From assembly GCA_902806345.1 (NCBI GenBank), contig CADCWF010000296.1, positions 1-60,577 on the forward strand: DNA of 60,577 nucleotides, read 5' to 3'. This DNA comes from an uncultured Thermomicrobiales bacterium. Its GTDB lineage: Bacteria > Chloroflexota > Chloroflexia > Thermomicrobiales > UBA6265. Below the pieces are notes generated by a model, which saw nothing but the letters and a program-made list of their open reading frames with translations, searched no databases and had not been told where the DNA came from. Both the position numbers and the translations under genes were made by a program. Of the stretch, positions 56,661 to 59,787 are shown piece by piece (position 1 is the first letter of the stretch; each line of letters begins with the position of its first letter).

Positions 56661-57029
56661 ATGAACGACCGGCGCCAGAGCGACCGCCTGGTGAGTCCCG
56701 ATCGGCTCCATGCCAGACTGGGGTCCGAACCGCCACAGGTGGTCGATGTCCGGAGCGCGGCCGAGTTCGCCGCCGACCACCTGCCCGACGCCGTCCACAT
56801 CCCGCTGGACGAGCTGCCGGCCCGCCTGGGCGAGCTGTCAGCGGGGCAGTCCGTCGTCACCTACTGAGCGATGGGTCACCCCGGTGCATCCCGCAGCGAG
56901 CGGGCCGCCGCGCTGCTCCGTGCGAGCGGCTTCGACGCCAACGCCCTCGCGGGCGGCCTCCCGGCCTGGGAGGCCGCGGGATTGCCGATGGCTCGGGAGG
57001 AGGCCGAGGCCCGCACCGCCGATGGGTGA
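56661..57029 (+). CDS. Rhodanese-domain protein with in-frame UGA at the catalytic Cys position, 122 codons
   Basis: Sulfurtransferase of the rhodanese fold. Residues 1-68 run from MNDRRQSDRL through VVDVRSAAEFAADHLPDAVHIPLDEL to SAGQSVVTY. Codon 69 (56865-56867) is TGA, exactly where relatives have the active-site Cys (VVTYCxMxHPGxSRxERAA). The same frame then continues intact: AMGHPGASRSERAAALLRASG, ALAGGLPAWEAAGLP, stop at 57027. Either selenocysteine, a nonsense mutation (TGC or TGT to TGA), or a base error. A short stem (GATG/CATC and CAC/GTG with a GGT bulge, 56870-56890) follows; its loop is closer to UGA than in standard bacterial SECIS. ATG has GAGGAG 7 nt upstream. Confidence 0.65.
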
Positions 57030-57056: not shown

Positions 57057-58283
57057 CTACCGCGCTCCCTGCCAGAGCACCAGACCGACCGCGGCGGCGG
57101 CAAGCACAAGGAGGGGCTCCGGCACCTTGAACCGCCAGAGCACGGCCAGGCTGCCGAGGGCGATCGCGGCCGTCGGCAGGTCGTAGATCGCCCGGCCGGC
57201 GAGGACGACCACCGCCCCGGCGATCGCCCCGCTCGCCGCCGCCGTCGCCCCGTCCGAAAAGGCGCGGAGCTGGGCGTTGTGGCGGTGGCGGACGAACCAC
57301 GGCGCGGGGACCACCGTCAGCACCCAGACCGGCAGGAAGATGCCGATCGCGGCCAGGGTCGCGCCCGGCAACCCGGCGACGAGGAACCCGATGAAGGCGA
57401 CCGTGATGACGACCGGCCCCGGGGTGATCATCGCCACCGCGACCGCGTCGAGGAACTGCTGCTCGGTCAGCCAGCCGTACCCTTCGACGACGCCTTGCTG
57501 GAGGAAGGGGACGATCGCCAGGCCGCTGCCGAAGACGAAGGAGCCGGCCTTGGCGAAGAAGAGCAGGATCTCCCAGAGGACGTTCGTGCCGGCCTGGGCG
57601 GCGACGAGCAGCGGGAGGACGAGCACGGCGGGGCTCAGCCCGAGGAACGGCAGGCGGGTCTTGAGCCAGCGCGGCGGCGCCTTGACCACCAGCACGACGA
57701 GCCCGGCGAGGAGGAAGAACTCGGCCAGCTCGGCCTGGGCGAGCGCGGTGACGACGAACAGCAGCGCGAAGACCCCCCACAGCAGGGGGTCGCGCCCGTT
57801 GACCTTGCGGGCCAGTTTGTAGGCGGCGATCGCGATGATCCCGATGACGGCGGCCGAGACGCCGTAGAAGGCGGCCTGCATCCACCAGAGACCGTCGTAG
57901 GCGACGTAGACCGCCGAGACCGCGAGCACCATCAGGAACGAGGGGAGGACGAAGGCGATCCCGGCCAGGGTGGCGCCGAGGACGCCGTGGGCGAAGTAGC
58001 CGATCGCGATCGCGAGCTGGGCGGCGAGCGGCCCCGGCATGATCTGGGCGAGGGCGAGCCCGAGCTTGTACTCCTCGTCGTCGATCCAGCGGCGGCGCTC
58101 GACGAGGTCGCGCTGCATGTAGCCGACGAGGGCAACCGGGCCGCCGAAGCCGACCGTGCCGAGCCGGAGGAAGTAGGCGACGAAGGGCCAGAGGCCGACG
58201 GCGGCCACCGGGCGTGACGCCAGGTTCTCCGCTTCGACGGTCGCTCCCCCGTCGGCGGTTGCGCTCTGGGCGCGGGTAGTCAC
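57057..58283 (-). CDS. chrA: ChrA family chromate/anion transporter, 408 aa
   Basis: Membrane transporter with two homologous CHR domains: first LRLGTVGFGGPVALVGYM (about 42-59) and second AKAGSFVFGSGLAIVPFL (about 240-257), each followed by a QIMPGPLA / MITPGPVV loop. About ten membrane segments. Known members export chromate and are often tied to sulfate status. GTG start at 58283 overlaps the TGA of the upstream phosphatase gene (GTGA). Starts upstream of this would read through the phosphatase gene and are unlikely. Confidence 0.92.
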   Translation of the reverse strand: MTTRAQSATADGGATVEAENLASRPVAAVGLWPFVAYFLRLGTVGFGGPVALVGYMQRDLVERRRWIDDEEYKLGLALAQIMPGPLAAQLAIAIGYFAHGVLGATLAGIAFVLPSFLMVLAVSAVYVAYDGLWWMQAAFYGVSAAVIGIIAIAAYKLARKVNGRDPLLWGVFALLFVVTALAQAELAEFFLLAGLVVLVVKAPPRWLKTRLPFLGLSPAVLVLPLLVAAQAGTNVLWEILLFFAKAGSFVFGSGLAIVPFLQQGVVEGYGWLTEQQFLDAVAVAMITPGPVVITVAFIGFLVAGLPGATLAAIGIFLPVWVLTVVPAPWFVRHRHNAQLRAFSDGATAAASGAIAGAVVVLAGRAIYDLPTAAIALGSLAVLWRFKVPEPLLVLAAAAVGLVLWQGAR

Positions 58284-58797: not shown

Positions 58798-59787
58798 GTG
58801 CGCGTCGTGGCGCGGGGGCTGGGGGATGTCGGGTCGGCGATGGCCCACCGGCCGTTCGGCGCCGGCCACGCGGTCGTCCTGCACGACGGGCCGCGGCCTC
58901 GCGACAACCTGGCGGCGGACGGCATTCGTCGACGCGGTCGTCGACGGGCAGGCCGAGCTCGCGGGGGTGCGGACCGTCCGGGTCAACGACCCGGAGGCGG
59001 TGCGCTCGGTCATCGCGGCCGGTACCGCCGTGCCAGTGGCCCCTCACGGGTAGCGCGGCACTCCTGGCGTTGGTCCGGCCGGACGTGCTGGTCGACGCCC
59101 GGATGCCCAAGCGGGCGGAGCCGGAGGACGGGCGCGCTCTGGCCGCCAGTGATGGTCGGCCTCGGTCCGGGCTTCGTCGCGGACGGCAATGTCGACATCG
59201 CCGTCGAGACGGGATGGGACGCCTTGGGCGGGATCGTCCGCACCGGGCCGACGCGGCCGTTGGCCGGGGAGCTACGGCCGATCAGCGGCGTCGCCCACGA
59301 CCGCAACGTCCAGGCCCCGGTCGCCGGGATCGTTCGCACCCGGCGGGACGCGGGCGAGCCGGTGCGGGCCAGCGACGGGGTCGCCCGCACCGGCGAGACG
59401 CCCCTCTCGGCCCCGGTCGCCCGCATCCTGGGCGCGATCGTCCGCGACGGGGTGCTTGTGGAGGCGGGAGCCAAGGTGGTCGAGGTCGCCCCCCGCGGCG
59501 CGGCGGAGGTGGCGGGGATCGGCGAGCGGCCGGGCCGGATCGCCGCCGGCGTGCCGGCGGTCGCGCGCGCGTTTGGAGGCGACCGCGGCGGGGCACCGAC
59601 GGTGAACGGTTCCCCGCTGGGAGCTTGCCCCCGGCCCACGGGTGGCTCGGCCCCGCAACGGGATACGCCAGGGATCGGCCAGGCACCCTGGCGAGGCACC
59701 GACCTTTGGGGGGGAGGTCGGGGCGATCGCTCGTGTCCGGACATGCGCCCGCCGCAAGGCCTTGCCAACCCGGCCGAGGGCTGGTAG
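58798..59787 (+). pseudogene. Frameshifted YqeB-like (EF2563, selenium-dependent molybdenum hydroxylase accessory) gene
   Basis: The family is linked to selenium-dependent molybdenum hydroxylases. GTG at 58798 has GGGGAGG upstream and opens VRVVARGLGDVGSAMAHRPF. Homology then shifts frame near 58915 (AFVDAVVDGQAELAGV), again near 59045 (ALLALVRPDVLVDARMPKRA), and back near 59150 (MVGLGPGFVADGNVDIAVET, VYAPVAG-like QAPVAGIVRTRRD, GTKVVEV-like GAKVVEVAPRG). Family homology ends near 59560. Three shifts make it non-functional unless the assembly is poor here. Confidence 0.7.

Follow-up and report, generated by a model that had tools for sequence, protein, structure and literature searches.

Does an in-frame TGA at the catalytic position of a small rhodanese gene represent a nonsense mutation, or is it read as selenocysteine (Sec)? 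The question is raised by a locus close to the end of the window, that is, the whole stretch of 60,577 nucleotides that was analysed, which derives from an uncultured Thermomicrobiales bacterium of the phylum Chloroflexota. A preliminary description, made from the sequence alone, had put forward a selenoprotein and proposed that the genome be searched for the Sec machinery, that orthologs be compared and that a bacterial SECIS element be evaluated; it named other disabling mutations in relatives as evidence to the contrary. The features concerned are as follows.

56661–57029, plus strand: gene of a predicted rhodanese selenoprotein (122 aa, residue 69 being Sec), ending in TGA at 57027–57029
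56865–56867, plus strand: in-frame TGA, codon 69, predicted to encode Sec at the catalytic site within the rhodanese loop
56648–56653, plus strand: GAGGAG, Shine-Dalgarno-like as read from the sequence and likely to serve the rhodanese gene as ribosome-binding site
56868–56897, plus strand: active-site loop region AMGHPGASRS, with a four-residue insertion relative to canonical CxxGxR loops in the alignment

The GAGGAG motif is separated from the ATG by 7 nt. Translation of the frame encountered a single internal stop, the TGA of codon 69, and the 122-aa product obtained by reading through it matched PF00581 over positions 1–102 of 102 (E 2.6e-17, 63.6 bits against a gathering threshold of 22.2). 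In alignments this TGA coincides with the TGC or TGT encoding the catalytic Cys of dozens of homologs. The preliminary description had noted both an otherwise intact frame and the placement of its only stop at the catalytic cysteine, and both points were borne out. An AlphaFold2 model (mean pLDDT 81) adopted the rhodanese fold when compared with 3tp9 (Z 18.4, rmsd 2.3, 107 aligned residues). The six-residue loop CxxGxR/S is not present, the alignment placing four extra residues within the loop, and the subfamily motif reads V-x-Y-U/C-x-M-x-H-x-G-x-S-R-x-E. By Pfam score and fold the window protein is a member of the rhodanese superfamily, though not of the canonical-loop type. The longer loop suggests that thiosulfate is not the substrate.

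The host genome assembly (5.08 Mb, 90% complete) encodes a tRNA-Sec with anticodon UCA (65 bits), together with selB (336.6 bits) and selD (346 bits), all three above their cut-offs. The selA gene was recovered as an N-terminal fragment only, covering the first 179 positions at a contig end and scoring 164 bits, below cut-off. A match on contig C283 was considered as the missing C-terminal half of selA and rejected, since by eye it resembles a different PLP enzyme. The selD gene (L019, 1500–2470) itself carries a TGA at the Sec site within the motif SCAG-U-AAKM, and host SelD is accordingly a predicted selenoprotein. A further gene of this kind was located elsewhere in the genome.

L074, 782–2528, host contig C206: fusion of a K+/H+ antiporter and a CxU-type rhodanese in which TGA occupies the Sec site, LSCA-U-PDEYTSARGALLL

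Despite its truncation, L074 scored 84 bits against NF041203, and a strong hairpin was found with its loop 22 nt past the UGA. The presence of tRNA-Sec, selB, selD and a selA fragment, with TGA codons in SelD and L074, indicates that Sec insertion is apparently in use in this genome. These findings also bear on whether a suppressor tRNA or near-cognate decoding might place Cys, Trp or some other residue at the UGA. Orthologs do carry Cys at this site and the residue inserted is invisible in DNA; however, a canonical tRNA-Sec with anticodon UCA is present alongside SelB, and UGA serves as a stop elsewhere, for example as the terminal TGA of the window gene and of its orthologs. PMC5424206, consulted on alternative decoding, contains nothing on UGA. 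We regard decoding as a residue other than Sec as highly improbable.

TGA occupies codon 69 in the window gene and in four other genes, L108 (genome G084), L121 (G342), L123 (G244) and L126 (G370), whose products share 57%, 57%, 54% and 49% identity with the window protein, respectively. The four genomes span three other families of the phylum. About a dozen orthologs (L122, L124, L125 and L127–L134) have TGC or TGT at this codon. Neither TAA nor TAG was found at codon 69 in any of the TGA- or Cys-bearing subfamily members examined, and no other disabling mutations were found in these orthologs. All four of the additional TGA genomes possess selB and three possess tRNA-Sec; for the fourth, G370, a fragmented bin, no tRNA-Sec match was found. 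Indeed, selB was present in every subfamily genome examined, including those carrying the Cys form, and tRNA-Sec in most, so that exchange of Cys and Sec occurs within Sec-using lineages. In a phylogenetic tree the extended-loop genes other than the window gene formed one supported clade (17 rows, support 98/97), with the window gene placed only loosely beside it. No ortholog was present in the nearest genomes of the host genus and family, where other rhodaneses occur; the subfamily emerges clearly at the level of class and phylum.

In nine of ten pairs of Sec genes the stretch following the TGA showed a lower rate of non-synonymous substitution (dN) than the stretch preceding it, the exception being L123–L126, for which the values were equal at 0.41. 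For the window gene and L108, dN and dS were 0.26 and 1.11 after the TGA and 0.52 and 1.36 before it; dS is about 1 or above in the Sec-gene pairs, with synonymous sites near saturation. These substitution patterns indicate that purifying selection at the protein level persists past the TGA, and a random nonsense mutation cannot account for lower dN downstream of a shared stop. A disrupted Cys rhodanese, whether a pseudogene or an assembly error, might otherwise have been entertained, since the yqeB-like gene nearby is split among several frames and local decay or errors therefore exist. Against this stand the selection past the TGA, the recurrence of TGA at codon 69 in four further lineages and the Sec machinery of the host, and we consider a nonsense mutation or base error improbable; with the TGA conserved across lineages, an erroneous base call at 56865–56867 in particular is very unlikely. 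Under the standard code the locus contains an ORF of 68 codons, and the UGA might simply terminate translation of a short functional protein of 68 aa. The strongest protein conservation nevertheless falls past the TGA, where dN is lower and where GASRSERAAALLRASG is identical between the window gene and L108, making a functional short product scarcely credible.

A hairpin of the type expected to direct Sec insertion was sought downstream of codon 69.

56890–56904, plus strand: candidate SECIS apical hairpin, CCCGC-AGCGA-GCGGG, -8.2 kcal/mol

The published bSECIS model calls for a loop of 3–9 nt, a stem of 4–16 bp, a G in the first two loop positions, a spacing of 16–37 nt and a minimum free energy of -7.5 or lower (PMC13188914). 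The apical loop of the candidate (56895–56899) lies 27 nt past the UGA and is the best loop of bSECIS type; that remarked upon in the preliminary description, about 13 nt past the UGA, is not the relevant one. The SECIS evaluation gave a divided answer, the hairpin satisfying the model yet not exceeding chance for the window gene alone: between 15 and 18% of random window positions match or beat it, comparison with synonymous recodings returned P 0.32, and the structure z-score of the gene was -0.78. Where GG or GU is usual, the loop reads GC. The hairpin is ordinary for sequence this rich in G+C, and its unexceptional character is a further point that would sit comfortably with a nonsense mutation or base error. 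Considered together, the Sec genes present a different picture. Over the 51 nt past codon 69, three of the five are structured beyond their recodings (P ≤0.008), and the Sec genes are more structured than their Cys orthologs (Mann-Whitney p 0.0016), including when the contrast is restricted to high-GC Cys genes (p 0.009). RNAalifold predicted a consensus hairpin for the Sec set, the loop lying 25 nt away from the UGA, and none for the Cys set.

The window gene therefore very probably encodes a single-domain rhodanese whose catalytic Cys is replaced by Sec at UGA 56865–56867 through the Sec system of the host. The selenoprotein proposed in the preliminary description is supported by the Sec machinery (selA being present as a contig-edge fragment), by the orthologs with TGA at the same codon and Cys in others, and by selection past the TGA; the disabling mutations looked for in orthologs did not materialise. 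An apparent pseudogene would thereby be corrected. Automated annotation would cut the rhodanese at residue 68. In the proposed mechanism, SelA, SelB, tRNA-Sec and SelD of the host would insert Sec at the UGA, with the mRNA hairpin just past this codon guiding SelB. The Sec selenolate would take the place of the thiolate that forms a persulfide, giving a perselenosulfide (R-Se-S), or might alternatively work as a reducing selenolate.

The genomic neighbourhood provides some indication of function. Directly downstream lies an intact and convergent gene.

57060–58262, minus strand: chrA, chromate efflux transporter (TIGR00937, 371 bits)

A chrA gene was found within 1.5 kb at 7 of 16 subfamily loci, against none among 61 rhodanese loci outside the subfamily (p 5e-6, a value uncorrected for the relatedness of loci). 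One of the seven, L130 (genome G475, f30), is a fusion in which a Cys rhodanese is joined to ChrA at the N-terminus of the transporter. By analogy with the ChrE-type rhodaneses of chromate operons, the rhodanese and ChrA may together handle sulfur or chromate oxyanion stress, and we infer a role for the rhodanese, through sulfur transfer or reduction by its Sec selenolate, in chromate or sulfur-oxyanion defence coupled to ChrA. Use of Sec by a ChrA-linked rhodanese, as suggested here, would offer a testable link between selenium and the handling of chromate or sulfur oxyanions. Upstream is the ssu sulfonate operon noted previously, comprising ssuE and ssuA with ssuD- and ssuC-like genes identified by Pfam. 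The yqeB-like gene, previously described as the neighbour on the other side, is further off than chrA (58798–59784, plus strand; TIGR03309, 71.7 bits against a cut-off of 220). Its coding sequence is split among three or more frames, and it is a pseudogene or the product of assembly errors. The argument for selenium that had been drawn from it is weak, the gene being frame-broken and not a Sec-insertion gene. A second ChrA fragment, in three frames and approximately 64–72% identical to the window ChrA, was observed in G244 (L140 9679–10925), where the Sec rhodanese lies some 4 kb downstream of it.

Rhodanese selenoproteins have been described previously. Reviews list forms with U at the catalytic site as well as CxU forms (PMC13188914, PMC9312934), the former including form 1 (UxxS) and forms 2 and 4 (UxxG) (PMC13188914), and a report on the Sargasso Sea set includes a rhodanese-related selenoprotein (PMC1088965). 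Forms 1, 2 and 4 resemble the window gene in that Sec replaces the catalytic Cys of a rhodanese domain. Compared by motif only, UAMG of the window protein is formally UxxG, as in forms 2 and 4 (MBM9537886.1, MCY3690685.1); the window subfamily differs in its U/CxMxHxGxSR motif and in a loop that is four residues longer, and its other Sec members have UNMR or UNMQ, so that UxxG is not conserved. NF041203 (rhodanese_LYCAU; CxU, form 3), which in the host genome is fused to the K+/H+ antiporter, is also a Sec rhodanese, but it keeps the catalytic Cys and has its Sec two residues further on, whereas that of the window protein is at the Cys itself. The window protein scored 33.3 bits against this model (cut-off 115) and lacks the CxU motif, and is not a member. 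ChrE (NF033833), a rhodanese-family chromate resistance protein, is chrA-linked, as is the window rhodanese, and was the second-best NCBIfam match by E-value; at 41.7 bits against a cut-off of 120, the window protein is not a member of this family either. No NCBIfam model covers the window subfamily at cut-off. A literature search retrieved no paper joining selenoprotein, rhodanese and chromate, nor a description of a Sec form of ChrE.

The window gene thus looks like a ChrA-linked variant of an established class. The loop insertion, the link to ChrA and the phylum-wide alternation of Sec and Cys appear to be new features, the UxxG forms having been compared by motif only. It is conceivable, and we propose it tentatively, that these genes constitute an undescribed selenoprotein subfamily of extended-loop rhodaneses in a ChrE-like context, paired with ChrA and in one genome fused to it, in which Cys was repeatedly replaced by Sec in Chloroflexota lineages. 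If true, selenium would thereby be linked to the homeostasis of chromate or of sulfur oxyanions. A well-supported series of Sec/Cys pairs is in any case added for a phylum in which descriptions of selenoproteins are sparse.

Two sets of stop codons were examined and set aside. TAG and TAA stops in several relatives were rejected as recoded codons, being C-terminal stops or lying outside codon 69, and the TGA of the closest same-family rhodaneses was rejected as an orthologous Sec site, since it occurs two codons later and is of the CxU type. CxU sites with TGA, similar to that of L074, were also seen in L024, L037, L038, L039 and L040. A scan of GTDB contigs returned canonical-loop Cys rhodaneses only, and a plasmid search returned a homolog from Deinococcus deserti (52%) with no chrA nearby. 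In L124, L127, L129 and L131–L134 the Cys ortholog is fused behind an N-terminal region of approximately 180–280 aa, which may resemble DinB-like domains.
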